Assembly (NCBI RefSeq): GCF_002078015.1
Contig: NZ_LWBP01000123.1
Coordinates: forward strand, 62,001-126,000
DNA length: 64,000 nt
Source of the DNA: Niastella populi
Lineage (GTDB): Bacteria; Bacteroidota; Bacteroidia; Chitinophagales; Chitinophagaceae
Direction: 5' to 3'
The translations under genes were made by a program, and so were the position numbers. The notes under the pieces were generated by a model. That model did not search any database and was not told the origin of the DNA. It saw only the letters and a program-made list of their open reading frames with translations. Each line of letters begins with the position of its first letter. Position 1 is the stretch's first letter. Shown piece by piece: positions 36,658 to 57,650 of the stretch.

Positions 36658-36800
36658 AAGCCGTAAGCTGTAAGCAAATACAGAATACAGCTGAAAGCTG
36701 TAAGTCTATAGCAAATACAGAAAACGCGGAACGCATGCAATTGCTTTTCAGTCCCGAATAAAAGAACCATAAACCAAAAACAATAAACCATAAACTGAAA
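36658..36800. repeat. 143-bp repeat, copy 1 (159-bp period)
   Basis: A block of about 143 bp that is repeated at 36817-36959 with one difference in the parts compared. It contains heptad units AAGCCGT and AAGCTGT, the core GCAAATACAGAATACAG (36674-36690) and the 18-nt core AGTCCCGAATAAAAGAAC (36750-36767, the reverse complement of GTTCTTTTATTCGGGACT). It is the longest non-coding repeat in the window. Confidence 0.95.
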
Positions 36801-36816
36801 TACAGCTGCAAGCTTC

Positions 36817-36959
36817 AAGCCGTAAGCTGCAAGCAAATACAGAATACAGCTGAAAGCTGTAAGTCTATAGCAAATACAGAAAACGCGGAACGCATGCAAT
36901 TGCTTTTCAGTCCCGAATAAAAGAACCATAAACCAAAAACAATAAACCATAAACTGAAA
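36817..36959. repeat. 143-bp repeat, copy 2
   Basis: Second copy of the block at 36658-36800, with the same cores at 36833-36849 and 36909-36926. A third 18-nt core follows at 36966-36983. The near-identity points to a recent duplication. Confidence 0.95.
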
Positions 36960-36974
36960 GCCGCGAGTCCCGAA

Positions 36975-37068
36975 TAAAAGAACTATGAACAATGAACTGT
37001 GAACTATGAACTGTGAACTATGAACTGAGAACTGAACAACTGAACAACTGAATAACTGAACAACTAAG
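36975..37068. repeat. Heptad/octad array before the GH2 gene
   Basis: Units GAACTGT, GAACTAT, GAACTGT, GAACTAT, GAACTGA follow at 7-nt steps and then GAACAACT, GAACAACT, GAATAACT, GAACAACT at 8-nt steps. The array ends 9 bp before the GH2 start at 37077 and leaves little room for a normal 5' untranslated region, so it is probably transcribed. Confidence 0.85.
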
Positions 37069-37076
37069 AATTGCCA

Positions 37077-39935
37077 ATGAAAAAGTTTCACTACATTATT
37101 TTACTTGCCATTATCACGAACATTCCGATTGCAAAAGGCCAAACGGTCCATCTCATTCAATACGCAATAGACCTGTCGGGCGATTGGCGGTTTCAAATGG
37201 ATTCGCTCGATAAAGGCGTAGAACAGCAATGGTTCAACCGGAAATTGTCCGGCGCCATTAAACTGCCGGGCTCCATGGCCACCAATGGAAAAGGTAATGA
37301 GGTTGACACAAATACCCCCTGGATTGGCAATATCATCGATTCCTCCTGGTTCTTCAAACCTGAGTATGCCGCCTATCGAAAAAAAGGAAATATAAAAATT
37401 CCCTTCTGGTTGCAACCCGTGAAATATTACAAAGGGGCAGCATGGTACCAGAAAACGGTACATATTCCCGCCGCATGGAAAGGCAAACAACTGGAGCTGT
37501 TCATCGAACGCAGCCATTGGGAAACCACCCTCTGGCTAGATGGAAAAGAAATCGGCATGCAGAACAGCCTGGGCACCCCGCATGTTTTCAACCTTACCAA
37601 CCTGCTTACTCCCGGCGCCCACCAGCTCACCGTTCGCATCGATAACCGCGTAAAGGACTTTGATGTGGGTGTAAACTCGCACAGCATTTCAGATCATACC
37701 CAAAGCAACTGGAACGGGATGGTGGGAAAACTAGCGCTTACCGCGCGTTCGCCCCTCTACGTTCAGGATGTGCAATTATATCCCGATATACACGCGAAAG
37801 AAGTACTGGCCAAAGTAACAATAGGCAACAGCACAGGTAAACCGGTAACAGCCCGTTTGCGTATGCTGGCAACAGCGCTGCGCGCCGGCGCCGGAAAATT
37901 AAAACCCGTTACACGGGAAATAGAACTAACCGGCGACAGCACAACGATTGAAATGCGTTATGCCATGGGCCCCGCGCCCCTGTTATGGGATGAATTCAAC
38001 CCCAACCTGTACACGATGAACGTACAGTTGCAACAGGGCGCCAATAAAGATGAAAAACAGGTGCAGTTCGGTATGCGTGATTTTAAAGCGCAGGGCACCC
38101 AATTCACCATCAATGGCCGGCTTACCTTTTTACGCGGTACCCTGGAATGCGCCATCTTCCCAAAAACAGGTTATCCGCCAACCGACATCGATTCCTGGTT
38201 ACGGATCTTCAAAGTGGCGCGCTCATTTGGATTGAACCATTTGCGCTTTCACTCCTGGACGCCGCCCGCCGCCGCTTTTGACGCCGCCGACCGCCTCGGG
38301 TTCTACCTGCATATTGAATGTTCCTCATGGGCCAACCAGGGTTCTCCCATCGGTGATGGCAAACCGCTCGATCAATACATTTATGAAGAAAGCGAGCGGG
38401 TGGTAAAAGCCTTTGGCAATCATCCCTCCTTTTGTATGATGGCTTATGGCAATGAACCCAAGGGTAAGAACCATGTAAAATACCTTACTGACTTCGTCGC
38501 CTACTGGCAGCATAAAGACCCGCGCCGTTTGTATACCACAGGCGCCGGCTGGCCGGTGATCGACAAACAGGATTACAACAGTACCCCCGATCCCCGCATA
38601 CAGGCATGGGGCGCCGGTTTAAAAAGTATCATCAACGCCCAACCGCCTAAAGCCGATTACAACTGGAAAGATATTATCGGCAAATGGCAGCATCCTACGG
38701 TAAGTCATGAAATAGGTCAATGGTGTGTGTACCCCGACTTCAAAGAAATTAAAAAATATACCGGTGTACTAAAAGCAAAGAACTTCGAGATCTTCCGCGA
38801 CAAGCTCAATAACCATGGCATGGGTAAACTGGCCGACAGCTTTTTGCTTGCCTCCGGAAAACTACAGGTATTGTGCTACAAAGCTGATATTGAAGCTGCG
38901 CTGCGCACACCGGGTTTCGGCGGTTTCCAGTTGCTCGATCTGCATGATTTTCCCGGTCAGGGCACCGCCCTCGTAGGCGTGCTGAACCCGTTTTGGGAAG
39001 AAAAGGGATACGTAACCGCCAAAGCATATAGCCGTTTCTGTAACGCGGTAGTTCCCCTGGCAAAACTGTCGAAAATGATCTGGCTGAATATTGAAGAATT
39101 GAATATACCGGTGGAAGTAGCGCAATTCAGCGCGGGACCGCTTAACAATGCAACGCCGGTATGGAGCGTCAAAAACGAAGCGGGCAATATGCTTTTCAAA
39201 GGACAATTGCCAACAACCAATATAGCGGTGGGCAATGCCATACAGTTAGGCACCATCAAACAATCGTTACAAAACATACAAAAACCCGAACGGCTTACCT
39301 TAACCATTTCTATCGGGGATTATCAAAACAACTGGGACCTGTTTGTATACCCTGTTTCGTTGCCTGATAACAACCAGGAAATACTGGTAACACACCAACT
39401 GGATGCAACAGCACAGGAAACACTTGAGAAAGGCGGCAAGGTGCTGCTGACATTGAAGAAAGGAACGTTGCGGCCGGAGAAAGGCGGCGATATAGCCATC
39501 GGCTTTTCCAGCATCTTCTGGAATACCGCATGGACGCATAACCAGCCCCCTGTTACACTCGGCATCCTGTGTAACCCTACACATCCGGCGCTGAAAGCAT
39601 TTCCCACCCAATACCATAGCAACTGGCAATGGTGGGATGCCATGAGCCATTCCGGCGCTATCATCCTCGATTCACTGCAAAAAGGCCTGCCGGCCATTGT
39701 ACGCGTGATCGATGACTGGGTAACCGCGCGCCCGCTGGCACTGGTAACAGAATGCAAAACCGGCAAAGGCAAATTATTGATCACAGGTATCGACCTGCTA
39801 ACAGACCAGGATCAACGTCCCGAAGCAAAACAATTATTATACAGCCTGAAACAATATATGGCCGGCGAAACATTCAAACCAGTTACAAGGGTAGATGCAA
39901 AAAAGGTGCAATCTCTTACGGTCGGTCAACCGTAA
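37077..39935 (+). CDS. Glycoside hydrolase family 2 (beta-galactosidase-like)
   Basis: A 952-residue exported protein from ATG 37077; an in-frame TTG lies two codons upstream. A signal peptide (cut near IAKGQ) precedes a sugar-binding jelly-roll domain (about 30-220), an Ig-like domain (about 225-335) and a TIM barrel. The acid/base Glu is Glu460 in AYGNEP and the nucleophile-type Glu is Glu545 in SHEIGQW, as expected for GH2. The C-terminal part is additional beta structure. It probably cleaves beta-linked galactosides, glucuronides or related bonds; the substrate cannot be read from sequence. It starts the carbohydrate region and is followed by a DUF5107-TPR protein (105 bp). A heptad/octad array precedes it. 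Confidence 0.92.
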   Translation: MKKFHYIILLAIITNIPIAKGQTVHLIQYAIDLSGDWRFQMDSLDKGVEQQWFNRKLSGAIKLPGSMATNGKGNEVDTNTPWIGNIIDSSWFFKPEYAAYRKKGNIKIPFWLQPVKYYKGAAWYQKTVHIPAAWKGKQLELFIERSHWETTLWLDGKEIGMQNSLGTPHVFNLTNLLTPGAHQLTVRIDNRVKDFDVGVNSHSISDHTQSNWNGMVGKLALTARSPLYVQDVQLYPDIHAKEVLAKVTIGNSTGKPVTARLRMLATALRAGAGKLKPVTREIELTGDSTTIEMRYAMGPAPLLWDEFNPNLYTMNVQLQQGANKDEKQVQFGMRDFKAQGTQFTINGRLTFLRGTLECAIFPKTGYPPTDIDSWLRIFKVARSFGLNHLRFHSWTPPAAAFDAADRLGFYLHIECSSWANQGSPIGDGKPLDQYIYEESERVVKAFGNHPSFCMMAYGNEPKGKNHVKYLTDFVAYWQHKDPRRLYTTGAGWPVIDKQDYNSTPDPRIQAWGAGLKSIINAQPPKADYNWKDIIGKWQHPTVSHEIGQWCVYPDFKEIKKYTGVLKAKNFEIFRDKLNNHGMGKLADSFLLASGKLQVLCYKADIEAALRTPGFGGFQLLDLHDFPGQGTALVGVLNPFWEEKGYVTAKAYSRFCNAVVPLAKLSKMIWLNIEELNIPVEVAQFSAGPLNNATPVWSVKNEAGNMLFKGQLPTTNIAVGNAIQLGTIKQSLQNIQKPERLTLTISIGDYQNNWDLFVYPVSLPDNNQEILVTHQLDATAQETLEKGGKVLLTLKKGTLRPEKGGDIAIGFSSIFWNTAWTHNQPPVTLGILCNPTHPALKAFPTQYHSNWQWWDAMSHSGAIILDSLQKGLPAIVRVIDDWVTARPLALVTECKTGKGKLLITGIDLLTDQDQRPEAKQLLYSLKQYMAGETFKPVTRVDAKKVQSLTVGQP

Positions 39936-40039
39936 CATTGTCCATCATTTTCGAAGTATTTTCCATTTTGCAGCATAAGCATTACAGCTAAGTTTGTTTT
40001 AAATCTCTTGTAACTACCAGAACAAATTCTAATCAGCAA

Positions 40040-43000
40040 ATGAGCCAGTCAACGATTCGCGTTTGGGAAGAAACAGTAACCATTCCTACATATGAAGCAG
40101 GCGAGCCCGACAAGAACCCCATGTTCTTCGAAAAGCGGGTTTACCAGGGCAGCAGCGGCGCCGTATACCCTAACCCGGTAATAGAAAAGATCTATGACGA
40201 GAAAAAAGACAAAACATACCAGGGATTATTTCTCGAGAACCAATACCTGAAGATCATGATACTGCCGCAACTGGGCGGCCGCGTGCAAATGGCTTACGAC
40301 AAAATAAAACAACGCCATTTTATTTATTATAACCAGGTTATTAAACCGGCGCTGGTTGGCTTATGCGGTCCCTGGATCTCAGGCGGTATCGAATTCAACT
40401 GGCCGCAACACCACCGCCCCAGCACTTTTGAACCGGTTGATTATACCATAGAAGAAAATGCAGACGGCAGCCAAACGGTTTGGGTAAACGAAGTGGAGCG
40501 CATGTTCCGCACAAAAGGAATGGCCGGTTTTACTTTACACCCCGACAAAGCCTATCTTGAAATAAAAGTAAAACTCTTTAACCGCACACCCCTGCCGCAA
40601 ACATTTTTGTGGTGGGCCAATCCCGCGGTAAAGGTGAACGATCATTATCAATCCGTTTTCCCGCCAGATGTGAACGCGGTATTTGATCATGGGAAAAGAG
40701 ATGTTTCTACCTTTCCCATCGCTACCGGCACTTACTATAAAGTAGATTACTCACCCGGCACCGACATTTCACGTTATAAAAATATTCCGGTGCCTACTTC
40801 CTATATGGCCGTGAATAGCGATTACGATTTTGTCGGCGGTTATGAGCACGACACGCAGGCCGGCGTATTACACGTTGCCAATCATCATGTATCGCCGGGT
40901 AAAAAACAATGGACGTGGGGGCATAGCGATTTTGGCCAGGCCTGGGACAGGAACCTTACCGATGAAGATGGCCCCTACATAGAACTGATGACCGGCGTGT
41001 TCACCGATAACCAGCCCGACTTCAGCTGGCTGATGCCTTATGAAGAAAAATCGTTCACCCAATACTTTATGCCCTACCGCGACCTGGGCGTAGTAAAGAA
41101 CGCCACAAAGGACGTGTTGCTGAATATAGAAAAACAGCATGGCGAACTGGTAGTGAAGGTATATGCCACCTCGGCACAGTTACTCAAGATACAATTGACA
41201 AAGGGCGATAAAGAACTGCTGAAGGAAGTTTTCCTGGTTAGTCCGGAAACAGTGTATACAAAATCAGTTGCTGTCAGCGAAGACATAACGCCGGAGAATA
41301 TACTGCTGGTACTAACCGATAAGAACGGTAAGGAAGCATTGCGGTATGCGCACAAGGCCAACAAACAAAACGACATTCCCGAACCGGCGAAAGCAGCGCT
41401 GGAACCAAAAGACGTAGAGAACAACGAGCAGTTGTACCTGACGGGTTTGCACCTTGAACAATACCGGCATGCCACCTACAGCCCGGTGCCTTATTATGAA
41501 GAAGCATTGCGCAGGGATCCCAAAGACATTCGTAACAACAATGCCCTTGGATTATGGCTGCTGCGGCGCGGACAGTTTGCCAAAAGCGAACCGTACTTTC
41601 GCAAAGCGGTTGAAACGCTTATCAGCCGCAACCCCAATCCTTATGACGGCGAGCCTTATTACAACCTCGGCCTCAGTTTGAAATGGCAGGGCCGGTTAAA
41701 GGAAGCGTATAATGCGTTTTACAAAGCCACCTGGAATAACGCGTGGCAGGACAGCGGTTTCTTTTCCGTAGCGCAAATCGATCTCGCCCGGGAAGATTAC
41801 TCACTGGCGCTGGAACATATTCAATTATCGCTCGACCGCAATGCAAAAAACAGCAAGGCCCTTGCATTGAAAGCGCTGGCATTAAGAAAACTCGGCAGGC
41901 ACCAGGCAGCGTTGACCGTTTGTACAGAAGCACTGCAAAAAGACCTGTTCAACCTTTCGATCTTATTTGAACAACATAAATTATATACTTCAACCGGCAA
42001 TGCGGCGGCTGCGCAACGCGCCCTCGATCAACTGGCGCGTATAGCGCGGGGCCATGCCCATAACTATTTCGAGTACGCATTGGATTATGTTGCCGCCGGC
42101 GCCTGGGAAGAAGCAATTGAACTACTGCAACTGGCAGCAGGTAAAAGTGAAGCAACCGCTTCACCTATGTTATGGTATTACCTCGGCTGGGCGCATCACC
42201 AGGCGGGCCTGAACAAGGAAGCGATAGAATATTTTAAAAAAGGGGCGCAGGCCGATCCGCGCTGTTGTTTCCCTAACCGGCTTGAAGATATTGCCGTTTT
42301 GCAACTGGCGGCAACCATTAACCCGGCCGACGCCAAAGCGCCGTATTATCTGGGCAACCTGTGGTACGACAAACGGCAGTATGATGATGCCATTGCCAGT
42401 TGGGAACTGGCCGTACAGCGGGATGATCGCTTTCCTACAGCCTGCCGTAACCTCGGTATAGCATACTTCAACAAACGTAACAACGCCGATAAAGCGCTAA
42501 GCTGTTATGTAAAAGCCTATGCGCTTGACACAACAGATGCGCGGGTGCTCATGGAGCTTGACCAGTTGTACAAACGCCTGAACAAATCGCCCAAAGAGCG
42601 GCTGGCGTTCCTGGAAACTCATATTACCGTAGTGGAACAACGCGATGACCTTTACCTGGAAAGAGCGGCGCTGTACAATTTCCTTGGCGACTTTGAAAAG
42701 GCGTATGACCTTATCATGCAAAGGAAGTTTCATCCCTGGGAAGGCGGTGAAGGAAAAGTATCGGCGCAATACATTTACAGCCTGGTGGGCATGGCGCGGA
42801 AAGCGATCCAGGCCGGTGATCCTGAAAAAGCGGTCGATCTACTGCAACAGGCACAGGTATACCCCGATGGGTTAGGCGAAGGAAAACTACATGGCGCGCA
42901 GGAGAATGATATTTTCTACTGGCTGGCCTGTGCATACAAAGAAATGGGCGATAAGGAAAAAGCCAGCAGTTGCTACAAAAAAGCAACCCGGGGGTTATCG

Positions 43001-43396
43001 GAGCCAACGGCGGCTATGTTCTATAACGATCAGCAGCCCGACAAGATCTTTTACCAGGGACTGGCCTGGCAAGCACTGGGTGAAACAGAAAAGGCCAGCG
43101 AGATCTTTTCACGGCTGGTAGCGTACGGTAAAACGCATCTGAACGATGAAGTGAAGATCGATTACTTCGCGGTATCGCTGCCCGATCTGCTGATCTTTGA
43201 AGACGATCTGAATGTGCGCAATGAAACCCATTGTCATTATATGATGGGGCTCGGGTACCTCGGTTTAAATAAACCGGAAGATGCAGCGGCCGGTTTGAAA
43301 AAAGCACTTCATCATGACGCGATGCATTTCGGTGCACAGACGCATCTTGATATAATTAGATCAATTAGAAACGAAGACAAAGTTGCAAGTAACTGA
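40040..43396 (+). CDS. DUF5107 domain protein with long TPR array
   Basis: An 1118-residue cytosolic protein without a signal peptide. The N-terminal 330 residues are DUF5107, a mutarotase-like beta-sandwich, with the block SGGIEFNWPQHHRP and the tract TFLWWANPAV. After a beta linker, a TPR superhelix from about residue 470 runs to the C-terminus, with repeats such as YLGWAHHQAGLNKEAIEYFKKG split by short loops. DUF5107 proteins are frequent in Bacteroidetes glycan loci and may act on or bind oligosaccharides; the exact reaction is not known to me. It follows the GH2 gene on the same strand by 105 bp. The 3' end converges with the GH3 gene across a hairpin of repeat sequence. Confidence 0.9.
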   Translation: MSQSTIRVWEETVTIPTYEAGEPDKNPMFFEKRVYQGSSGAVYPNPVIEKIYDEKKDKTYQGLFLENQYLKIMILPQLGGRVQMAYDKIKQRHFIYYNQVIKPALVGLCGPWISGGIEFNWPQHHRPSTFEPVDYTIEENADGSQTVWVNEVERMFRTKGMAGFTLHPDKAYLEIKVKLFNRTPLPQTFLWWANPAVKVNDHYQSVFPPDVNAVFDHGKRDVSTFPIATGTYYKVDYSPGTDISRYKNIPVPTSYMAVNSDYDFVGGYEHDTQAGVLHVANHHVSPGKKQWTWGHSDFGQAWDRNLTDEDGPYIELMTGVFTDNQPDFSWLMPYEEKSFTQYFMPYRDLGVVKNATKDVLLNIEKQHGELVVKVYATSAQLLKIQLTKGDKELLKEVFLVSPETVYTKSVAVSEDITPENILLVLTDKNGKEALRYAHKANKQNDIPEPAKAALEPKDVENNEQLYLTGLHLEQYRHATYSPVPYYEEALRRDPKDIRNNNALGLWLLRRGQFAKSEPYFRKAVETLISRNPNPYDGEPYYNLGLSLKWQGRLKEAYNAFYKATWNNAWQDSGFFSVAQIDLAREDYSLALEHIQLSLDRNAKNSKALALKALALRKLGRHQAALTVCTEALQKDLFNLSILFEQHKLYTSTGNAAAAQRALDQLARIARGHAHNYFEYALDYVAAGAWEEAIELLQLAAGKSEATASPMLWYYLGWAHHQAGLNKEAIEYFKKGAQADPRCCFPNRLEDIAVLQLAATINPADAKAPYYLGNLWYDKRQYDDAIASWELAVQRDDRFPTACRNLGIAYFNKRNNADKALSCYVKAYALDTTDARVLMELDQLYKRLNKSPKERLAFLETHITVVEQRDDLYLERAALYNFLGDFEKAYDLIMQRKFHPWEGGEGKVSAQYIYSLVGMARKAIQAGDPEKAVDLLQQAQVYPDGLGEGKLHGAQENDIFYWLACAYKEMGDKEKASSCYKKATRGLSEPTAAMFYNDQQPDKIFYQGLAWQALGETEKASEIFSRLVAYGKTHLNDEVKIDYFAVSLPDLLIFEDDLNVRNETHCHYMMGLGYLGLNKPEDAAAGLKKALHHDAMHFGAQTHLDIIRSIRNEDKVASN

Positions 43397-43403
43397 GTTA
43401 TTG

Positions 43404-43488
43404 AGTTATTCAGTTATTCAGTTGCTCTTATTCAAACCCGTTATTACCCGCGAGCGTATGAACTTATGCACTGAATAACTGAATAACT
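43404..43488. terminator. Hairpin made of octad repeats between convergent genes
   Basis: AGTTATTCAGTTATTCAGT (43404-43422) and ACTGAATAACTGAATAACT (43470-43488) are exact reverse complements (19 bp) with a 47-nt loop. They lie 8 bp after the DUF5107 stop and 12 bp before the GH3 stop on the other strand. The arms are octad repeats of the dispersed family. It may act as a bidirectional terminator; there is no long T run. Confidence 0.7.
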
Positions 43489-43499
43489 TTCCCGTACCC

Positions 43500-45761: not shown

Positions 45762-45984
45762 TGGTAAAATTATCAACCGGTAACTTATTGACTTTTATGC
45801 TACTTCTGACGATCATCACCTACTACTTCTCCACTACAACTACCATTTATACTTCTTTACCGGTACATTTTACCCCTACAAAGCCCCTACAACCAACGTT
45901 TAAACCATCTGTTGGCATTTTATTTTACCAATGCTGTCCAATTTCCGGCACCCCGGTCATTATTGAAGTATAAAACAATTCAAT

Positions 45985-46383: not shown

Positions 46384-46390
46384 TAATAAA

Positions 46391-46454: not shown

Positions 46455-46488
46455 CTTCTCTTCTGTTTCCTGCCAGGGGAAAACGTTA

Positions 46489-48624: not shown

Positions 48625-48634
48625 GGCAAGTAGT

Positions 48635-49534
48635 TTATTTCAGTTCTGACAGTTGTTTTATTAGTTCCTTTTGCTTCTCTGTAAGGTTGGTTGGCAATTT
48701 TACATGCATGGTCACATACAGGTCGCCAAACTTTCCTTCCTCCTTATATATGGGAAACCCCTTCTCTTTAAGCCGTACTTTTGTTCCGTTCTGTGTTTCG
48801 GGTTTCACTTTCAGTTTAAGCTTGCCGCCCAGGGTGTCAATAGTAATTTCCCCGCCAAGCAATGCGGTATACAGATCGATGTGCTGGTTAAGATACAGAT
48901 CGTTACCCATACGTTTGAACGGCGTATTGTTCACAATTGAGAAAGTGATGTACAGGTCGCCTGCAGGCCCGCCGTTTACCCCTTCGCCCCCATGCCCTTT
49001 CAGGCGGATCTTCTGACCATCTTCTATACCAGCGGGAATCGTAATGCGTACATTTTTCCCATTTATGGTGAGCGTTTGCTTATGGGTGGTATATGCATCT
49101 GTAAGATCGATCTTCAGCTCCGACTCATAATCCTGCCCGCGGAACTTCGCCGTTCTTCTACCCTGGCCATGTGGCCTTCCGCCGAACAATGACTCGAAGA
49201 AATCGGAGAAATCGCCGCCGCCAAAATCTTCCGCGGAAAACTGCTGACCGCCGCCGCCAAACGGCTGCTGCCGCTGCTGGCCCCTTCCCGCCTTTTCAAA
49301 TTGTTCGGCATGCTCCCAGTCTTTTCCGTACTGGTCGTACTTTTTCCTCTTTTCAGGATCGCTCAACACCTCATTTGCTTCATTGATCTGCTGAAATTTT
49401 TTACTGGCTGCCGCGTCATTGGGATTCACATCAGGATGATGTTTGCGCGCCAGCTTCCGATATGCTTTCTTTATATCTTCCTGGGTAGCGTTTTTATCAA
49501 CGCCCAGTATACTGTAATAATCGACGAACTCCAT
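48635..49534 (-). CDS. cbpA: CbpA-type DnaJ cochaperone
   Basis: A 299-residue J-domain protein. The J domain at about 5-70 has the HPD motif in [10 protein letters not shown] Gly/Phe-rich linker ([27 protein letters not shown]) follows, then two DnaJ C-terminal substrate domains ([14 protein letters not shown] and [21 protein letters not shown]). The zinc-finger region of DnaJ is absent, as in CbpA. It stimulates DnaK and may bind curved DNA. The cbpM inhibitor gene follows by 10 bp. Confidence 0.93.
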
Positions 49535-49598
49535 AAAACCGTTTTTATCTTTTCAATACTATCCGGTATTAAATTTACTGAAAGAATATAAACAAAAA

Positions 49599-49632
49599 AA
49601 AAGACCATACCGGCAGCCGGCGATGGTCTTTT
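49599..49632 (-). terminator. Intrinsic terminator of the dsbD/iscS operon
   Basis: On the minus strand AAAAGACCAT / ATGGTCTTTT forms a 10-bp stem with CCGG pairs within the 14-nt loop, followed by about nine T. It lies 33 bp after the cysteine desulfurase stop and before cbpA. Confidence 0.88.
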
Positions 49633-49665
49633 CATGGCTACACATATATGCAGCAATCATACTAT

Positions 49666-50814
49666 TTATATTTCCTGCAAACTGAACAGTTCTTCCAGCA
49701 CGCCAACCACTTTATCTACTTCCGCCTTTGTATTGTACTTGCTGAATGAAAAACGGATGGTATTGCAGACCTCATTTTTCTGTAACGCTCTTATTACATG
49801 CGAGCCGCTGTTATCGCCGCTGCTGCAGGCGCTTCCGCCCGAAACGCAAATACCCGCCATATCGAGCTCAAGCAGCAACGAACCGCTGTTGGGTGTTTTG
49901 GGAAAACAAACGCTCAGCACGGTGTACAATGAATTATCCGGGCTGTTAAAACCAACGCCGGGAATAACTTCCTGCAGCTTTTGTTTCATGTATGCTTTCA
50001 ACCGGGCGATGTACTGGCTTTCTTTTTCATAAGCGTTCATGGCAAGCTCCAGCGCTTTGGCAAAACCAACGATACCATATACATTTTCGGTACCGGCACG
50101 CATGTTCCGTTCCTGCGAACCGCCATAAATAAGCGGTTCTATTTGCAAACCGGCATGAATATACAGAATGCCAACCCCCTTGGGCCCATGAAACTTATGA
50201 CCGGCGCCTGAGATGAAATGCACACCCGACTCGAGTAAGTTCAATGGATAATGCCCTACGGTTTGCACACAATCTGAATGAAAGATGGCATTGTATTGTT
50301 TACACAGCGCGCCTACACGCACTATATCGAGGAGCGTGCCTATTTCATTATTCGCATGCATCAAAGAAACCAGTACCTTTTTTCCGGCAGCGGTAACTTC
50401 TTTCAACTGCGTTTCAAGGTTATCGTAATCCACTTCACCGGTTGGCGTCAATGCCACCAGCGAAAAAGGAACCTGCTGGGCGCGGCAATAATATTCAACC
50501 GTATGCAAAACGGCATGGTGCTCGATAGGCGATGTAATTATATGCGTACAGCCGAGGTCGAGCACAGCCGATGCAATGGCGGTGTTATTGCTCTCGGTAC
50601 CACCGCTGGTAAAGTAAATGGTTGCAGGCGCAACGCCCAGCAGGGTCGCTACATTTTTGCGGGCGGTTTCAACACCCAGCTTTGCCATTCTGCCAACTGA
50701 ATAATTGGAAGAAGGATTGCCGAAAGTATCTTTCATAAACGGCAACATTGCCTCCAGCACTTCGCTATCGAGCGGTGTGGTGGCTGCATTGTCAAAGTAT
50801 ATTGCTTGCTTCAT
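49666..50814 (-). CDS. iscS: Cysteine desulfurase (NifS/IscS class)
   Basis: A 382-residue PLP enzyme that takes sulfur from cysteine and passes it to Fe-S scaffold or tRNA-modifying proteins. The PLP Lys is Lys207 in GAGHKFHGPKG, His100 near HIITSPIEHHAVLH is the ring-stacking His, and the persulfide Cys is Cys330 in SGGSACSSGD. The SGGTESNN motif and the Cys position near the C-terminal third fit NifS/IscS. It starts 21 bp after the dsbD stop on the same strand and ends at a strong terminator, so the two are co-transcribed. Confidence 0.93.
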   Translation of the reverse strand: MKQAIYFDNAATTPLDSEVLEAMLPFMKDTFGNPSSNYSVGRMAKLGVETARKNVATLLGVAPATIYFTSGGTESNNTAIASAVLDLGCTHIITSPIEHHAVLHTVEYYCRAQQVPFSLVALTPTGEVDYDNLETQLKEVTAAGKKVLVSLMHANNEIGTLLDIVRVGALCKQYNAIFHSDCVQTVGHYPLNLLESGVHFISGAGHKFHGPKGVGILYIHAGLQIEPLIYGGSQERNMRAGTENVYGIVGFAKALELAMNAYEKESQYIARLKAYMKQKLQEVIPGVGFNSPDNSLYTVLSVCFPKTPNSGSLLLELDMAGICVSGGSACSSGDNSGSHVIRALQKNEVCNTIRFSFSKYNTKAEVDKVVGVLEELFSLQEI

Positions 50815-50835
50815 AATTCGCTGAACTATGGTTAT

Positions 50836-52488
50836 TTAATTAGTGGTATTATATGAATCCAGTCCTTTTTTCAGGAACTCCTTATAATTTTCTACATCAT
50901 AGTCGGCACCCTGCGGCGGAGTAAGCAGTTGTTTTGTTTTGGGATCGAGCAAAACATAAAAGGGCTGTGAATTGGCTTTGAATTCGCTTGTTTGCAGATT
51001 GCTCCATTTATTGCCGATGGTTTTTATACGGCGGCCATCGGAAGTCGTATACTGTTCCGCATCGGGCAATGTGGTTTTATCGTCAACATACAACTGGATC
51101 AACACATAGTCGTCGTTGATCAGTTTGTTAACCCCGGCATCGGGCCACACATTCGCTTCCATTTTACGGCAGTTCACACAGGCATGGCCGGTAAAATCGA
51201 TCATTACCGGCTTGCCTGCATGTTGAGCGTAGGCTATACCTTCATCATAATCAAAAAACGGTTGAAAACCTTTCGGGGCTTCAAACAGATCGGCGTATTT
51301 GCGCGTTGCGTTTGTACCCGGTTGTTTTTCATGGCCAACTCCGGATGAAAGATCAAAATCCTGGGTGCTCATTGGCGGCAGGAAAGCACTTACACTTTTC
51401 AGTGGCGCGCCCCATAAGCCGGGTACCAGGTACATGGTAAATGAAAAGCAAATGATCGCCAGAAACAAACGAGGTATAGATATATGGGTTAAGGGGCTGT
51501 CATGATTGAAGCGGATCTTACCCAACAGGTACAAGCCAAGCAACCCGAAGATCACGATCCAGAGAGAAAGGAATATTTCCCTGTCGAACCACTTCCAGTG
51601 ATACGCGAGGTCGACGTTGCTCAGGAACTTCAGGGCAAACGCCAGTTCGAGAAAACCCAACGTTACCTTAACGCTGTTGAGCCAGCTGCCCGATTTTGGC
51701 AATGAGTTCATCCATGAAGGGAACATCGCAAACAGCGTGAACGGAAGCGCCAGCGCCAGCGAAAAACCAAACATGCCTACCGCCGGCCCCATCAGCGCAC
51801 CGGTAGTGGCCGTTTGCGCCAGCAATGTACCGATGATGGGCCCCGTACAGCTAAAGGAAACTAGGGCCAGCGTGGCGGCCATAAAGAATATTCCGCCCAA
51901 ACCTTTGCCGCCCGCTCTGCTGCCCACCTTATTTACCCAACCAGACGGCAAGGCAATTTCAAACGCCCCAAAGAACGAAGCGGCAAAAACGACAAGCAAC
52001 AGGAAAAAAAAGAAATTGAAAATACCATTGGTAGCCAGATCATTCAGCGCATCGGCGCCAAACACAAGGGTTATCAGTAATCCCAGCGATACGTACAAAC
52101 CAATAATGCTGAGGCCGTATACAATCGCTTTACCAACCGCGCCCTTACCCTTTGAGCTCTTTGTAAAAAAGCTTACCGTCATTGGCAACATGGGAAAAAT
52201 ACAGGGCATCAGTACAGCAGCAAAACCACCCAGTAAACCGGCAATAAAAATAGCCGGCAGGGTTTGGGGCGAAGCTTCCTGCGCGTTTGTTATTACAGCA
52301 TGTTTTATTGCCACGGAATCAGTTTTAGCAGCTACAGGAGCTACCTGTTCCGTTGCCGCACTATCGGTAATGGGCGTGAACTCTATATCTTCGGTTGATA
52401 CCGTATCCTGCGCATGCCCTGCAGCAGCGCCGGTAAAAAGGATCAGTATCATCAACAGGGCTTTCAGCCACGTGTTATTTGCAAACAT
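50836..52488 (-). CDS. dsbD: DsbD-like thiol-disulfide reductase, membrane plus thioredoxin domains
   Basis: A 550-residue protein. After a signal peptide (GAAAGHAQ) there is no N-terminal DsbD alpha domain; instead an acidic linker leads to an eight-TM-type domain with the redox Cys pair Cys96 (LMPCIFPM) and Cys214 (FSCTGPIIG). A C-terminal thioredoxin-like domain has Cys438-x-x-Cys441 (HACVNCRKM). It carries electrons from the cytoplasm to the periplasm for disulfide reduction and cytochrome maturation. The missing alpha domain is in the neighbouring gene 52565-53026. It is followed by iscS. Confidence 0.92.
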   Translation of the reverse strand: MFANNTWLKALLMILILFTGAAAGHAQDTVSTEDIEFTPITDSAATEQVAPVAAKTDSVAIKHAVITNAQEASPQTLPAIFIAGLLGGFAAVLMPCIFPMLPMTVSFFTKSSKGKGAVGKAIVYGLSIIGLYVSLGLLITLVFGADALNDLATNGIFNFFFFLLLVVFAASFFGAFEIALPSGWVNKVGSRAGGKGLGGIFFMAATLALVSFSCTGPIIGTLLAQTATTGALMGPAVGMFGFSLALALPFTLFAMFPSWMNSLPKSGSWLNSVKVTLGFLELAFALKFLSNVDLAYHWKWFDREIFLSLWIVIFGLLGLYLLGKIRFNHDSPLTHISIPRLFLAIICFSFTMYLVPGLWGAPLKSVSAFLPPMSTQDFDLSSGVGHEKQPGTNATRKYADLFEAPKGFQPFFDYDEGIAYAQHAGKPVMIDFTGHACVNCRKMEANVWPDAGVNKLINDDYVLIQLYVDDKTTLPDAEQYTTSDGRRIKTIGNKWSNLQTSEFKANSQPFYVLLDPKTKQLLTPPQGADYDVENYKEFLKKGLDSYNTTN

Positions 52489-52564
52489 AGATGTTTATTG
52501 AGGTGTGCACACTTACCCAACGTCGTTTACGTAAAGTGCGGCACAACTTTGATTAGGTAGAAAA

Positions 52565-53026
52565 TTACTTAATGGGAATGCTGAAAGCCTGCTCAGTAGG
52601 CGGAAGACATTTTTCATCGTTGCAAACCATGTACTCCACAGCGCCCTTTACCGTTGCGGGAAACTTACCCACTTTTACTTTTTGCTGAAAGATCACCGAC
52701 TTTTCAAAGAAAGCCACCTTCATACCGAATGCAGGTTCCATACGTACGATCGGTTTCGGTTCTTTGGTAGTTCCATTTAAAGTATAATCCTTAGAGGCGG
52801 GGAAAGTAAACGTGGTTTTAACCGGGCCGCCTTCTTCCACTGTTTGAGAATACAAATGCCAGCCGCCTTCAATAGTAGCTTTAATGAACACAACCGCTTC
52901 GGTGGCGCTAAGCTTTTTGGCGCCATAACTCCACTTTACGGGATTCAGGATCTGGGCGCTTCCCTTCAGGGCAGACAATACGAGCACAGCAGCGAAAAAT
53001 GCTTTCGTTGAAAATCGCATACACAA
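52565..53026 (-). CDS. Separate N-terminal (alpha) domain of DsbD
   Basis: A 153-residue exported protein with signal peptide (cut near KGSAQ). The domain matches the DsbD N-terminal immunoglobulin-like alpha domain: YGAKKLSATEAVVFIKATIE, GGWHLYSQTVEEGG split by a strand turn, and the redox Cys pair in VCNDEKCLPP. In E. coli DsbD the three domains are one polypeptide; here this domain is a distinct gene 76 bp upstream of dsbD on the same strand. It should pass electrons from the membrane domain to periplasmic substrates. Confidence 0.88.
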   Translation of the reverse strand: MCMRFSTKAFFAAVLVLSALKGSAQILNPVKWSYGAKKLSATEAVVFIKATIEGGWHLYSQTVEEGGPVKTTFTFPASKDYTLNGTTKEPKPIVRMEPAFGMKVAFFEKSVIFQQKVKVGKFPATVKGAVEYMVCNDEKCLPPTEQAFSIPIK

Positions 53027-53069
53027 TGATTTAGACGGAATGGAAAATTATATTACCAGGAATCGGTTT

Positions 53070-53083
53070 GCAAAGGTCTTTGC
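53070..53083. promoter_or_regulatory. GCAAAG palindrome in the dsbD-lrp divergent region
   Basis: GCAAAGGTCTTTGC has inverted 6-bp halves around GT, between the divergent nDsbD and Lrp starts. A regulator site is possible; the Lrp-type protein itself is one candidate. Confidence 0.35.
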
Positions 53084-53231
53084 CTTTATGGGAACTAAAA
53101 TTGACAAACTTTCCGTTTATTTCCAATAGGATTGCCGTTTATCCATAAATTTTATGGCCAAACGACCGTTTTTCTTACTTTTATTCGGAAATCAGAATCT
53201 TAATACAGCAATTCCTGTTACTTTTTTCAAT

Positions 53232-53699
53232 ATGCAACTGCCCGAATTAGACACTATCGACCTTCAGATTTTGCGTTTGTTACAAAAAGACGCTTCCCTT
53301 ACCAACAAGGAGATCGCATTTGAGCTCGAAAAATCGGTAGCCACGATTCATGAGCGCATCAGGAAGCTGAAAGAACAGGGATACATAAAGAAGATCGTGG
53401 CCCTGCTCGACCGCAAAAAAATAAACAGGGGACTTATCGCCTTTTCGCAGGTATTATTAAATGATCATACCGCGAAAACCTTAAAAACATTCGAAGAAGA
53501 GGTGTCGCGTTTTCCTGAAGTGATGGAATGTTTTCAGATGACGGGCACTTTCGATTTTATCCTGCGCATCGCCACCAGCGACATGGATGCTTACCACGAT
53601 TTCTACCGTAACAAACTTGCTACGTTACCGAACATCACCACCGTTCAAAGTTTCTTTGTGTTATCGGAAACAAAAAGCATCACTGCTTATCCGATATAG
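53232..53699 (+). CDS. Lrp/AsnC family transcriptional regulator
   Basis: A 155-residue regulator from ATG 53232 (MQLPELDTIDLQI); an upstream in-frame ATG at 53154 adds 26 residues without family match. The N-terminal HTH is in LQKDASLTNKEIAFELEKS (about 15-35), with VATIHERIRKLKEQGYI. The C-terminal RAM ligand domain runs to the end (MDAYHDFYRNKLATLPN). Lrp proteins bind amino acids or related effectors. It is divergent from the nDsbD gene, which it could regulate. It is followed by a repeat-rich region. Confidence 0.92.
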   Translation: MQLPELDTIDLQILRLLQKDASLTNKEIAFELEKSVATIHERIRKLKEQGYIKKIVALLDRKKINRGLIAFSQVLLNDHTAKTLKTFEEEVSRFPEVMECFQMTGTFDFILRIATSDMDAYHDFYRNKLATLPNITTVQSFFVLSETKSITAYPI

Positions 53700-53725
53700 G
53701 TGAATGGTGAATGGTCGATGATGAA
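53698..53725. repeat. Heptad array after the lrp gene
   Basis: Units GGTGAAT, GGTGAAT, GGTCGAT, GATGAAT follow at 7-nt steps directly after the Lrp stop. The 428 bp between lrp and the histidine kinase hold repeats of the same family and no gene was found there. Confidence 0.8.
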
Positions 53726-53954
53726 TACCCGAAAACTCGTGCCAATGAACAATATGCCGCTCGTTCTGCAATGGAAAAAGAATGCTGCCATCGATACAGG
53801 GGTACTTGCATCGATGGCGCAAACAAAAACAACCAACGTATGTACGATACGAAAAACCCATTTCGTACGCAGGTCCAAGATAGAAAGTTACTCCCCGCCA
53901 TTCAATGTCATTAACCACTGAAATAATGGTACATTTTACTATTCCCCCGGGCTT

Positions 53955-54118
53955 GTTCTTTTATTCGAGGCTCATAACTAATTGCTGGCCTCGACGATTT
54001 CGGTTTATGGTTTATTGTTTTTGGTTTATGGTTCTTTTATTCGACACTCGTAACTAATTGCCGGCTTTCAGCTGTATTCTGTATTTGCTCGTTGCCTCGT
54101 TGCCTAGTTGCCTTTATG
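53955..54118. repeat. Composite repeat region with two 18-nt cores and a 17-nt core
   Basis: It contains GTTCTTTTATTCGAGGCT (53955-53972), then heptads TTTATGG, TTTATTG, TTTTTGG, TTTATGG (54004-54031), GTTCTTTTATTCGACACT (54031-54048), CTGTATTCTGTATTTGC (54072-54088) and octads CTCGTTGC, CTCGTTGC, CTAGTTGC (about 54087-54110). The whole order resembles the reverse complement of the 36658-36983 block. Confidence 0.85.
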
Positions 54119-54127
54119 CCTTGCCTT

Positions 54128-55483
54128 TCAGCTAAATACCAGGTAAAAAACATTATACCCTCCTTCCCTGAAAAAACTAACGTTTCCCCTATGCAGTTCC
54201 GTGATCTGTTTTACCAGTGGCAGGCCCAAACCATTTCCCTTTATGCTGGTGGCGTTCGAGGCGCGGTAGAAAGGTGTGAACATCAGGCTTTCCTCTTCGG
54301 TCGACAATGGTTTGCCGAGGTTTTTAAAGATCAGTTTCTTTGAATTCTCCAGCAGCCGAACGATCACAATGGCCTTTCCATCGTCAGCATACTGCAATGC
54401 ATTTTTCAGCAGGTTATTAAAGGCCATGGTTAGCAACGGCACATTGGCATGGATCATCAACGCCTCTTCTTCAGCAGCCTCGCCTTCGAAATTTACTTCT
54501 ATCAGCGAATTCGGGAACAGGGCCTGAATGATCTCTACCGATCTGAACAACAGTTCATCGAGCCGCACCCGCGGATACTCCCGTTCGGTTACCATCTTAT
54601 AATCTGACAACAACAATAACGAATTGGTGATGCCGGTCAGGTTCTGTTGCTGCAGGTATAACTGCTCCAGCGCCTGCCTGTATTGCTGTACGTTCAATTC
54701 CCTGGCCAGGGCATTTTCGGTAATGCCGATCATAGCAGTAAGCGGCGTTCTGAGCTCGTGCGAGGCGTAATGCACAAAATCCTTCTGAATACTGAACGAT
54801 TGCTGCAGCCGCTCCAGCATCTGGTTGAACCGGGCAGCGAGGCTGTTCACCTCTTCCCCCTGCCCTTCCTGCTTCAGCCTTATGTCGAGATTGGCTGAAT
54901 TGATATTCTGCAAATTGTTTTTTAAAGATTCAAGCGGGTTGATAACGCGTTTTACAAAAAAATAGGTGGCCGCCCAGCCAACGATCAAACCCGAAAAATA
55001 TACGATGATCATCACCCATTTCAGGAAGGTCATTTTTCTGCGGCCGTATTTATCGAAGGCTTCGGCCAGAATGGTATAGTCTTTATTATCCTGCCTGATA
55101 TAAATGGCTATCAGCTCATCGCTGCCTTTCGTTGTAAAAATTTCCTTTTCCTCCTTTACCCGCGCCAGCAGCGACCGGTCATAATCGATCTCTTTATCGT
55201 CGATACTGGTATAGATCGCCCGTTCACCTTCAAAGATCATGATCTTTTCGTTGTATAAGGTGTTTAGCGTGTTCCTGTCTATAACCTTCAACAGGTCAAG
55301 ATCGATCTGTTCTACTTCTATCAGCAGTTTAAACGTGGTAAGCGAACGGTCCTTCAGCCTGTTATAAAACTCTTCCCTGCGAAAGTCGGCAGATGAAAAA
55401 TAAACGATCAGCAGCGCTATGGCAAAAAAAACGGTGAACAGAATGGAAAACCCTATGGCGAATCGTACCCGTAAGCTTTTCAT
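54128..55483 (-). CDS. Membrane sensor histidine kinase
   Basis: A 451-residue kinase. It has a first TM (about 10-30), a periplasmic sensor of about 125 residues, a second TM (about 155-178), a HAMP-like linker, the HisKA domain with the phosphoacceptor His242 in YASHELRTPLT, and a HATPase domain (NLLKNALQYADDG, then GNGLGLPLVKQITELH). This is the QseC/EnvZ-like plan. It starts 31 bp after the cognate response regulator stop on the same strand. The stimulus is unknown. Confidence 0.93.
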   Translation of the reverse strand: MKSLRVRFAIGFSILFTVFFAIALLIVYFSSADFRREEFYNRLKDRSLTTFKLLIEVEQIDLDLLKVIDRNTLNTLYNEKIMIFEGERAIYTSIDDKEIDYDRSLLARVKEEKEIFTTKGSDELIAIYIRQDNKDYTILAEAFDKYGRRKMTFLKWVMIIVYFSGLIVGWAATYFFVKRVINPLESLKNNLQNINSANLDIRLKQEGQGEEVNSLAARFNQMLERLQQSFSIQKDFVHYASHELRTPLTAMIGITENALARELNVQQYRQALEQLYLQQQNLTGITNSLLLLSDYKMVTEREYPRVRLDELLFRSVEIIQALFPNSLIEVNFEGEAAEEEALMIHANVPLLTMAFNNLLKNALQYADDGKAIVIVRLLENSKKLIFKNLGKPLSTEEESLMFTPFYRASNATSIKGNGLGLPLVKQITELHRGNVSFFREGGYNVFYLVFS

Positions 55484-55514
55484 ATATTACTATGATGTAT
55501 TCGGTATAACGTAA

Positions 55515-56210
55515 TTACTGCCCGGGGGAAAGAAAATAACCAAATCCCGGTTTTGTATGGATCAGTTTATTGGGAAATGATTTGTCGATCTTGTTCCTCA
55601 GTAAATTTATGTACACTTCAATTGTGTTATCGCCAACGCTGTATTTACCTTTCCACACCTTCTTCAGTATTTCTTCTTTCGATACCGGCAACCCATTACT
55701 TTCGGCCAGCAGGGCAAGCAGGTTGAATTCGGTCTGGCTGAGTTTGATGACCTCCTTTCCGCGGAAAACAGATTTCCCTTTTATATCGATATTCAGATCG
55801 CCTACCTGGTAAAACCGCTTGCCGCCGGGCGCCAGCTCATATCGCTTCAGGATGGTTTTCAGCCTTGCGATCAATTCCTCCATAAAAAACGGCTTTATGA
55901 TGTAATCATCGGCCCCTGTTTCAAAACCCTGCAGGCGGTAATGTACATCGCTGTAAGCCGTAACCATCAGCACAGGTAATTCAGCATTGTTCTTCTTTAT
56001 TATGGATGTTGCCTGCAACCCGTTTATTCCGGGCAGCCTTATATCCATGATAACTGCATCGGCAACATGAAGAATATCCGATTCTATGGCAAGTTCTGCT
56101 TTGGAGTACGCAAACACGTCAAATTCGTTACGGGTGAGGTTCTCCACCATGTTCTGCTGAACAGCAACTTCGTCTTCAATAACAATAATGCACTTCTTTT
56201 TTTCCATCAA
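55515..56210 (-). CDS. OmpR/PhoB-type response regulator
   Basis: A 231-residue regulator with receiver (about 5-120) and winged-helix DNA-binding domain (about 135-230). The phosphoacceptor is Asp56 in AVIMDIRLPG; the C-terminal domain shows SQTEFNLLALLAESNG and VGDNTIEVYINLLRNK. It is the likely partner of the kinase 54128-55483, which follows on the same strand after 31 bp. No transcription signal upstream could be identified with confidence. The upstream 264 bp to the sigma-like gene are A/T-rich and show nothing else. Confidence 0.93.
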   Translation of the reverse strand: MMEKKKCIIVIEDEVAVQQNMVENLTRNEFDVFAYSKAELAIESDILHVADAVIMDIRLPGINGLQATSIIKKNNAELPVLMVTAYSDVHYRLQGFETGADDYIIKPFFMEELIARLKTILKRYELAPGGKRFYQVGDLNIDIKGKSVFRGKEVIKLSQTEFNLLALLAESNGLPVSKEEILKKVWKGKYSVGDNTIEVYINLLRNKIDKSFPNKLIHTKPGFGYFLSPGQ

Positions 56211-56474
56211 TATGGCAATGAATTATGATTCCCAAATTAAGAAAGAAAAAGCAACTACAAACAACTACTGATTTTTTCAAATAACATACTGGCTTTAAGC
56301 CCATTTTAAGGTTGTTCTTATTATTTTCAATATGTCTGAACCGCATCCTTGTTACTTAACGCATTACTTCTGCACACCCCTTAAACTATTCTATAAAAAC
56401 ATATGGTTACCATTGAAGAGCGCCCAACGCGGAACCAATAGCAAATATCTGATATACCATTCAATTTTACCACT

Positions 56475-57416
56475 ATGAATGACGCGCAATTGATAAGCTG
56501 GATAGATCAACATGAAAAAGCCGGAGAAACTCAGTTTATTATATTGATTGATCTGCATCAACCAATAATCGGAAAGGTTTGCAGGCTTTATAAAAACTCG
56601 AAAGACGACCAGGAAACCCTTTTCAGGGAGATCGTGTTCCGGTTATGGCAATCGGCCGCTGCCGGTAATGACAAACTACAGCTCAGCGACTGCATATACC
56701 AGGTAATGTTAAGCACTGCCATTTCCAGCAATATCATCAATGCATCCAAACGGTTAGGTCATAAAACTGAAAAGCTGCCGCATGCCGGTATCGGTGATCA
56801 AATGATGCGCGCCATCAGGGAACTGGCCGATGACGACAAGGCCATCCTCCTCTTGTACCTGGAAGAGCTGCCTTACCCCCGGATCGCAGCAATAACCGGC
56901 ATTTCCGAAACCATTTTGGGGGTAAAACTGAACCGGATCAAAAAGAAGGTACAACAACAGATCACCATACCCGGGGAACAATACATTTTGAAATCGATCT
57001 GGCGTAACATAAAAACAGACGTTAAAAGTGAAACCGAATTAAGGTCAATAATAAACGAACCTGGCAGCCCCGTTTTTGGAATCCTGAATAATATCCTGCC
57101 ATCGCATCCCTTTGGCAAAATTCCGGCAGCAAATACCGACCTTAGAAGATCGCTGGAAGATCAGCTTGCGAAAATAAGAACGTATGCAAGAGCATCGATC
57201 ACCAGCCGCGTTATTGCCCTTGCCTGTTTGCTGGTGCTCGGAAGGTTCGTCTTTACCGATAATATGACCATGCGATGGGTGATGGGAGCCGCCCTGCTGT
57301 TTTTAGCCATTCATGTAGTGGCTCTATCAGTTACATGGGCAAAAAGGGCAAGGCAAATGAAATGTACTATCAATCACTTACGCGCCCAACGGGAAATCAG
57401 AAAAAGTTATAAGTAG
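56475..57416 (+). CDS. Sigma-factor-like DNA-binding protein fused to a C-terminal membrane region
   Basis: A 313-residue protein. Residues 1-90 resemble sigma region 2 (FIILIDLHQPIIGKVCRLY, then FREIVFRLWQSAA), and residues about 115-165 resemble region 4 (DDKAILLLYLEELPYPRIAA, then ISETILGVKLNRIKKKVQQ). A soluble middle part follows (IWRNIKTDVKSETELRSII) and then two hydrophobic segments (about 243-260 and 268-290) and a basic tail. Sigma factors are normally soluble, so a membrane anchor is unusual. In related Bacteroidetes the sigma gene and a small membrane gene can be neighbours, so a fusion is a possible origin (inference from memory). No FecR was found nearby. Confidence 0.7.
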   Translation: MNDAQLISWIDQHEKAGETQFIILIDLHQPIIGKVCRLYKNSKDDQETLFREIVFRLWQSAAAGNDKLQLSDCIYQVMLSTAISSNIINASKRLGHKTEKLPHAGIGDQMMRAIRELADDDKAILLLYLEELPYPRIAAITGISETILGVKLNRIKKKVQQQITIPGEQYILKSIWRNIKTDVKSETELRSIINEPGSPVFGILNNILPSHPFGKIPAANTDLRRSLEDQLAKIRTYARASITSRVIALACLLVLGRFVFTDNMTMRWVMGAALLFLAIHVVALSVTWAKRARQMKCTINHLRAQREIRKSYK

Positions 57417-57419
57417 TAA

Positions 57420-57650
57420 GTTCCTTTTATTCGGAACCCATGAACATTCGCCGGTCCCGCAATTTCGATTTGTTGCTTGTGGTTCTTTTATTGGGGACTG
57501 AAAAATAATTGCGGGCCTCGCCAATTTCGGTTTGTTGTTTGTGGTTTGTTGTTTGTTGTTCTTTTGTGCGGGACTAATAAACATTTGCGGGCCTCGATAC
57601 GGCGCGAGCCCAAAACTTTGAACTAAAAACTTAGAACTTACAACTTCTCT
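57420..57650. repeat. Heptad region with three 18-nt cores after the sigma-like gene
   Basis: Cores at 57420-57438, 57482-57499 and 57558-57575 follow the pattern GTTCTTTTATTCGGGACT with changes. Heptads such as TTTGTTG, TTTGTGG, TTTGTTG, TTTGTTG (57531-57560) and TTGAACT, AAAAACT, TAGAACT, TACAACT (57617-57650) lie between and after them. The remaining sequence up to 57850 shows no gene. Confidence 0.85.

Follow-up and report, generated by a model that had tools for sequence, protein, structure and literature searches.

Repeat cores in three gene gaps

We analysed a 64,000-nt stretch of the Niastella populi genome (RefSeq assembly GCF_002078015.1, contig NZ_LWBP01000123.1, forward-strand positions 62,001 to 126,000; referred to here as the window), for which an original prediction had described eight copies of an 18-nt core beside tandem 7-nt units (heptads). 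Heptads, this core (core A, GTTCTTTTATTCGGGACT) and a second, 17-nt core (core B, CTGTATTCTGTATTTGC) had together been read as one modular and possibly mobile repeat element. We find that core A is not itself the element: it forms the inner left end of a two-ended hairpin element with dispersed copies. Related species tend to carry such arrays in the same gene gaps, often with different units, and we tentatively explain them as hairpins at gene ends kept for their shape. The cores and adjoining heptads of the window are the following.

36652-36675, minus strand: heptads adjoining core B, GCTTACG-type on this strand
36674-36690, minus strand: core B, which goes with this other heptad family
36750-36767, minus strand: core A, perfect, at the 3' end of four GTTTNTN heptads
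36765-36795, minus strand: heptad array GTTTATG GTTTATT GTTTTTG GTTTATG GTT
36833-36849, minus strand: core B, second copy
36909-36926, minus strand: core A, perfect, in the second unit of a 159-bp tandem duplication
36924-36954, minus strand: heptad array, order as in 36765-36795
36966-36983, minus strand: core A, perfect, after GTTCNNN heptads
36980-37035, minus strand: heptad array, word GTTCANA
53955-53972, plus strand: core A with two changes, between convergent Lrp/AsnC-type and histidine kinase genes
54002-54033, plus strand: GTTTNTN heptad array
54031-54048, plus strand: core A with two changes
54072-54088, plus strand: core B
57420-57438, plus strand: degenerate core A with an inserted base
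57482-57499, plus strand: core A with one change
57530-57560, plus strand: GTTTGTN heptad array
57558-57575, plus strand: core A with two changes

The eight copies of core A are borne out. Seven are recovered at up to three mismatches, at the places and on the strands first given, where shuffled sequence yields a mean of 0.05 and none of 100 shuffles reaches seven; three are perfect (36750, 36909 and 36966, all on the minus strand). The eighth, at 57420-57438 (GTTCCTTTTATTCGGAACC), carries one inserted base together with other changes. Core B, at the same threshold, has eight matches against 0.23 expected and is perfect at 36674, 36833 and 54072, while the reported variant at 29867 accompanies heptads of the GCTTNNN family. 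Three gaps hold all core A copies of the window. The first (36.6-37.07 kb) is upstream of a GH2 glycosidase gene, the second (53.7-54.13 kb) separates the convergent Lrp/AsnC-type and histidine kinase genes, and the third (57.42-57.85 kb) lies between the genes for a sigma-70 region 4 protein and a DUF892 protein. The 159-bp tandem duplication contains two of the three perfect copies.

The association with heptads is real in the window, in that GTT-type heptads precede the core A copies, though those ahead of 57482 are degenerate and the copies at 53955 and 57420 have none. The TAATTGC-type tail said to follow core A often is found after the copies at 53955, 54031 and 57482 and in altered form at 57558, 36750 and 36909, but there is none at 36966. 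Similarly, the proposed order of heptads, 18-nt core and 17-nt core can be read at 36640-36990 and at 53950-54090, but not at 57420-57575. The two cores do not form parts of one element: core B belongs with a separate heptad family, GCTTNNN/AATACAG, which adjoins core A in a mosaic. An Rfam scan at the gathering score gave no matches, for the window alone and not for the intact elements elsewhere.

Anatomy and distribution of the two-ended element

Reading outward from several copies gave the layout (GTTTRTN)n - GTTCTTTTATTCGGGA - variable middle - TCAAAGCGCGGCAGCAACC - inverted (NAYAAAC)n, which occurs in several species of the genus and supports the idea of a modular repeat element, with core A as its left end. 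Fifty inverted GTTTNTN pairs delimit elements of 90-228 bp, many of them 104-119 bp. Terminal inverted repeats, as in a miniature inverted-repeat transposable element (MITE), are present in all 50, a set found by that very pattern, and are degenerate and not exact. The conserved inner ends GTTCTTTTATTCGGGA and TCAAAGCGCGGCAGCAACC are not repeats, so the heptad repeat alone is not the whole feature.

In the window's genome (G000, 8.6 Mb) core A has 51 matches at up to three mismatches compared with eight for the reversed pattern, and is therefore neither confined to the window nor a product of chance. At up to two mismatches, the genus set of G000 and nine relatives gives 20 matches in G000, seven in G002, six in G003, three in G004, one each in G006 and G007 and none in the other four members; outside the genus, three of 19 genomes have one or two each. 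The right end TCAAAGCGCGGCAGCAACC, at up to three mismatches, is found 37 times in G000, 33 times in G003 and 10, 8, 7, 6, 4, 3, 1 and 1 times in the remaining eight members. Beyond the genus, 49 genomes give zero to five matches, where a reversed control gives zero to four. The element rises above background in the window's genus only. On contig C196 of G000 (71765-72712) seven right ends stand in a row, five of them spaced 168 bp, and contig C197 starts with two more; this looks like tandem amplification.

A 1.23-Mb sample of G000 places core A at the 3' end of heptad arrays, often with a conserved tail after it; the sample was partly picked for core hits, and some of its 54 listed rows are chance matches in genes. 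Forty-three core A matches in the sample, a few of them due to chance, have a heptad upstream, and inverted heptads follow downstream in nine and not in the other 34. The window copies are of the single-armed kind, with the second arm absent. The GTAG/GTGG (or CGTC) tag of repetitive extragenic palindromes (REP) is absent from the consensus of 13 class I cores and from that of 36 core A copies, the latter hand-chosen from lists that include chance matches (window position 53175, for example). A scan of genome contigs for the heptad-plus-core pattern gave no matches. One loose pattern that matched mostly by chance was excluded.

Intergenic arrays with periods of seven and eight

The GTTTRTN heptads are not alone in these genomes. 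Within 0.91 Mb of G000 we counted 105 intergenic arrays of period 7 and 55 of period 8; the multiples 14, 16 and 21 are also enriched, and the other periods from 3 to 20 (except 14 and 16) give at most seven arrays each. As for heptameric simple sequence repeats, tandem 7-nt units exceed other unit lengths and are mainly intergenic. Under a stricter threshold, 108 of 381 gaps in this sample hold an array. With a lower one, 191 of 380 mapped gaps of five species do so, compared with zero to two in five dinucleotide shuffles. Array score thresholds vary between analyses from 9 to 14, and genes were called as greedy open reading frames (ORFs) of at least 100 aa. Because the two 100-kb mapped regions were chosen as element-rich, and stretches L071-L090 for core hits, densities there are not genome averages.

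The array words are many, including GTTTRTN, GTTCANA, GCTTNNN, GGTSAAT, GTTACCG, GTGATAAT and GATTTNNN. A further 1.35 Mb, from 80 named loci of the family and neighbouring groups, yielded 43 arrays of period 7 and 13 of period 8 (one of each being a run of N), with one to eight for each other period from 3 to 12, and the words differ again. Since the excess recurs there with yet other words, the counts indicate that the habit of 7- and 8-nt arrays reaches beyond the genus, more sparsely in the family, and that the GTTTRTN element does not. At L048:10729-10941 there is a dispersed repeat of about 105 bp with GATTTNNN-type octads (8-nt units), which has many matches in four relatives and is absent from the corresponding site there.

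Other arrays of the window are listed below.

10170-10342, no strand assigned: inverted GGTGAAT/GGTCAAT heptad arms, at 10170-10191 and 10297-10342
29867-29921, minus strand: GCTTNNN-family heptads with the core B variant
37030-37065, plus strand: octad array AACTGAAC/AACTGAAT, ending about 11 nt before the likely ATG (37077) of the GH2 glycosidase gene
43388-43489, no strand assigned: octad hairpin of the same array system, arms AGTTATTC, RNA fold z -7.34, between two convergent ORFs
54088-54122, plus strand: octad array, word GCCTCGTT

The hairpin at 43388-43489 pairs nearly perfectly, its first bases overlap the end of the first ORF, and it shows the system more cleanly than the reported cores do. 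The AACTGAAC octads at 37030-37065 are close to the published TAACTGA word.

Pairing of the arms and the seventh heptad position

An inverted partner of an array was found in 107 of the 191 occupied gaps, above all 20 shuffles of the remainder. Neighbouring arrays compared in inverted orientation score 12.3, against 6.5 for random partners, with 20 of 92 over the 95% level. When five intact GTTTRTN elements were folded as RNA, z scores of -3.6 to -5.8 were obtained, and the three of these from L048 consist mostly of short 6-bp runs split by mismatches. The true arms pair no better overall than swapped arms (-17.12 versus -17.72 kcal/mol), and selection for arm stability was dropped as an explanation on this ground. 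Given the lack of an overall stability gain, a position-specific test was made.

Among 160 in-register heptad pairs from the 50 elements, 21.9% are complementary at position 7, compared with 36.6% for swapped arms and 32.3% for reordered arms; a value as low arose in 0 of 2000 permutations with either control, counts that are not independent probabilities because orthologous elements were counted separately. For G000 alone the figure is 18.5% (as low in 0/2000 swapped and 78/2000 reordered permutations) and for G003 alone 26.9% (14/2000 in each). The effect depends on register: in 48 non-overlapping elements, position 7 is complementary in 22% of pairs in register, 40% one heptad off and 27-33% two off, and it lies below the element's own mean in 24 elements and above it in five (p 5e-4). 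Position 5 is complementary in 55.6% of pairs versus 45.5% for swapped arms (5/2000), with no excess over reordered arms. In view of this anti-matching at position 7 relative to both controls, the GTTTRTN arms appear to pair, with the seventh position kept unpaired. A separate candidate, a CGRRRCT/GGCCTCG stem in core A, looked convincing by eye and was rejected, as 67.1% of cells are paired versus 65.9% after shuffling (111 of 500 shuffles as high).

Occupancy and turnover at orthologous gaps

We mapped 102 G000 gaps, from the two element-rich regions, to four relatives by their flanking genes, locating 77, 68, 67 and 66 of them. Species pairs in which both gaps are occupied number 238, against 166.8 expected (sd 7.9, maximum 191 of 300 permutations made within species and length bin). 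Arrays are present in 40 of 67 gaps between convergent genes, in 128 of 241 between tandem genes and in 23 of 72 between divergent genes, the last class being depleted. A shared array stretch scoring at least 10 was detected in 131 of the 238 co-occupied pairs (24% of random pairs) and none in 107; the array word is therefore kept at about half of co-occupied sites and changed at about half. At a score of at least 23, 53 of the 238 share a stretch (5.5% of random pairs). The most alike species, G006 and G007, have 11 of 22 pairs over the random 95% level, and other species pairs have 2-5 of 20-31.

Individual sites, read by eye, illustrate both outcomes. At C1:351946-352101, G000, G006 and G007 carry a GTTTRTN element, G003 a GAATNNT hairpin (read by eye and unscored by script) and G002 an octad hairpin. 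At C198:167186-167309, all five species seem to carry heptad hairpins, which are of two unrelated kinds; two of these hairpins are scored by the script. Vertical retention is seen at some sites (L296/L303, and one array identical in G000 and G002), and some single arrays without a second arm look conserved. At L059 (C198:160992-161119) the heptads GTTTGTG GTTTGTA GTTTGTT GTTTGTG are identical in G000 and G002 amid diverged DNA, with no second arm seen. Taken together, the retention of the same places, often with different units, suggests that shape matters more than letters.

A neutral origin has to be set against this suggestion: arrays could be functionless by-products of slippage that prefers 7-8 nt and of template switching at hairpins in weakly constrained DNA. 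Heptameric repeats are over-represented in many bacteria, for which the contact length of the polymerase has been proposed as a cause in the excerpted account of Rehm et al. (2015, PMC4692102), and the enrichment of multiples of the unit fits as well. Avoidance of promoters would account for the depletion between divergent genes, plain descent for the word common to about half of the co-occupied pairs, and gaps may differ in how prone they are to arrays. We nevertheless regard a neutral origin as unlikely. Non-heptad ends common to loci and species require copying and not slippage, co-occupancy exceeds the length-matched expectation, and the register-specific mismatch at position 7 is hard to obtain without arm pairing, though the instability of perfect palindromes alone could yield a mismatch.

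The same turnover bears on whether the arrays are binding sites for an RNA- or DNA-binding protein that counts in sevens, such as a cold-shock protein, acting on translation or mRNA fate. A binding protein was proposed for TAACTGA repeats before start codons in Beggiatoaceae, repeats found in five Bacteroidetes too (MacGregor 2015, PMC4679880, as excerpted), and octads resembling that word stand in the window at 37030-37065, just ahead of a likely start codon. A reader of sequence would keep its word, whereas the word differs in about half of the co-occupied orthologous pairs; together with the inverted partner in about half of the occupied gaps, this makes the binding-site explanation highly improbable.

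Mobility and the Y1 transposase

Dispersal, and turnover at orthologous sites, agree with the original suggestion that the repeat is mobile, whereas no target-site duplication, linked transposase or clean empty site was found. In G002 the matches that flank the 53.7-54.1 kb gap are about 7.5 kb apart, and a clean empty site could therefore not be read at this place. If the GTTTRTN element were a non-autonomous mobile element, MITE- or REP-like, its heptad arms would be terminal repeats and it would be moved in trans by a transposase, possibly of the Y1 (HUH) type. Copies with two conserved ends are indeed dispersed in numbers that vary by species (37 right ends in G000, 33 in G003, 1-10 elsewhere in the genus). 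Each of the ten genus genomes has one strong Y1 gene in the same place, between the DAHP synthase/chorismate mutase and 3-dehydroquinate synthase genes, a location shared by G011 of another genus. In G000 this gene lies at about 137.8 kb of contig C145 (L113). In its motifs, DHMH and YIEKQEEHH, it is similar to subclass 1.2 of Quentin et al. (PMC6006769), for which the excerpted source lists no REP.

By eye, a heptad hairpin stands directly upstream of the Y1 gene in nine of the ten genomes, but its words belong to other families and it flanks the gene on a single side. Of 50 element borders, 6 have direct repeats of 2-3 nt, about as in shuffled partners, and no element match was obtained in phage records, plasmid records or viral contigs. 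Across 50 named genomes, arrays occur at 12 of 34 loci where the genome has an intact strong Y1 gene and at 8 of 16 where it lacks one, and in the genome of the richest locus (L177) the only strong Y1 match is broken. Y1 transposase was rejected as the moving agent, being a fixed single copy whose presence does not follow that of arrays, and was kept only within this alternative; on balance, a transposed element is a rather unlikely account. Reverse transcriptases were likewise rejected: the genome has three, and the stretches fetched around them contain no arrays.

Proposed hairpins at gene ends kept for shape

The explanation we favour, tentatively and at slightly less than even confidence, is that these arrays are gene-end hairpins kept for their shape while their sequence turns over by slippage and copying. 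The two heptad arms of the GTTTRTN element can pair, and within a heptad the seventh position is the one that tends to remain unpaired. What selection keeps would be the hairpin, most likely as a two-way structure at gene ends that ends transcripts or protects the mRNA 3' end. Arms may lengthen by slippage of 7 or 8 nt, and whole hairpins may now and then be replaced by copies from elsewhere. Long perfect palindromes are unstable in DNA. They would be avoided or lost, hence perhaps the mismatch at position 7. The GTTTRTN element belongs to a larger set of 7- and 8-nt word families whose arrays lie between genes, about half of these arrays having an inverted partner. The window copies would be single-armed relics piled in tandem with other families.

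A more specific version is a genus-wide gene-end device, in which the hairpin architecture is inherited at a fixed place and the word is swapped among a shared vocabulary of heptads and octads. The GTTTRTN arms would have six paired and one mismatched position in every 7 nt, the mismatch letting a long RNA hairpin exist without a long perfect palindrome in the DNA. We consider this version unlikely.

A number of results weigh against gene-end hairpins kept for shape, besides the equal stability of true and swapped arms. No inverted partner was found in 84 of the 191 occupied gaps, and 34 of the 43 core A matches with an upstream heptad in the G000 sample lack an inverted array downstream. Neighbouring arrays are also alike in direct orientation (6.7 versus 4.6, with 17 of 92 over the 95% level). 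The L080 and L126 elements, two of the five folded, carry perfect runs of 17-18 bp, and the copies in the window mostly fail to fold, three of them giving z scores of -0.33, -2.75 and -0.67. The mismatch rule is not general, as elements with heptads of other words lie below their own mean in 25 cases and above it in 22, and octads give a weak position trend only (24 below versus 11 above). For core A itself, the covariation score of the stem is matched by 206 of 500 shuffles, and RNAalifold predicts no pairs. Nor do the elements resemble intrinsic terminators: the U-tract is absent, both arms are rich in A and T, and the 3' arm, A/C-rich in the elements read, contains no run of T. Next to arrays, canonical terminators show no significant deficit, either in convergent gaps (3/17 versus 21/50, p 0.086) or in tandem gaps (12/72 versus 22/161, p 0.55); a pattern of terminator exclusion is suggestive in convergent gaps only.

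Intergenic repeats of bacteria are usually read as parasites of a single sequence (REP, MITE) or as products of slippage. Here conservation of place exceeds chance although the word is often replaced, and in one family the arms bear a statistical mark of pairing, with a mismatch at a set position. Ordinary comparative and transcript data could test what causes the excess of 7-nt repeats in bacterial genomes, and likewise whether gene-end hairpins can be selected for shape alone.

Comparison with known systems

A literature search within openly licensed papers found no description of the GTTTRTN element. Several published systems share features with it, and are compared here as they appear in excerpts of the cited papers. 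A heptameric excess and degenerate heptads have been reported for Xanthomonas and Nostoc (Rehm et al. 2015, PMC4692102). As here, the units are degenerate, intergenic and 7 nt long, lie mostly in the same gene gaps of two relatives with altered length and sequence, and include an inverted case. Those heptamers have a G-rich word with proposed quadruplexes. The words seen here are many, not G-rich and often accompanied by an inverted partner, and one family has conserved inner ends on both sides and tends towards a mismatch. The TAACTGA repeats of Beggiatoaceae, cyanobacteria and five Bacteroidetes (MacGregor 2015, PMC4679880) are also intergenic heptamers, sometimes just before start codons and with other heptamer assemblages nearby; they differ, in the excerpted account, in being direct repeats of one fixed word, with no hairpin element having conserved ends.

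REP sequences and their TnpA-REP transposases (Quentin et al. 2018, PMC6006769; Corneloup et al. 2021, PMC8266576) offer a parallel in many-copy intergenic hairpins and a single-copy Y1 gene. The GTTTRTN element departs from REP in having no GTAG/GTGG foot, a length of about 104-119 bp as opposed to 20-40 bp (PMC3733652), heptad arms and no link between Y1 and arrays across genomes. Finally, the BrickBuilt MITE of Porphyromonas gingivalis (Klein et al. 2015, PMC4596501) is likewise an intergenic element of Bacteroidota that combines tandem repeats with inverted ends. In BrickBuilt a 23-nt minisatellite lies inside the element, whereas here the 7-nt arrays are themselves the arms.

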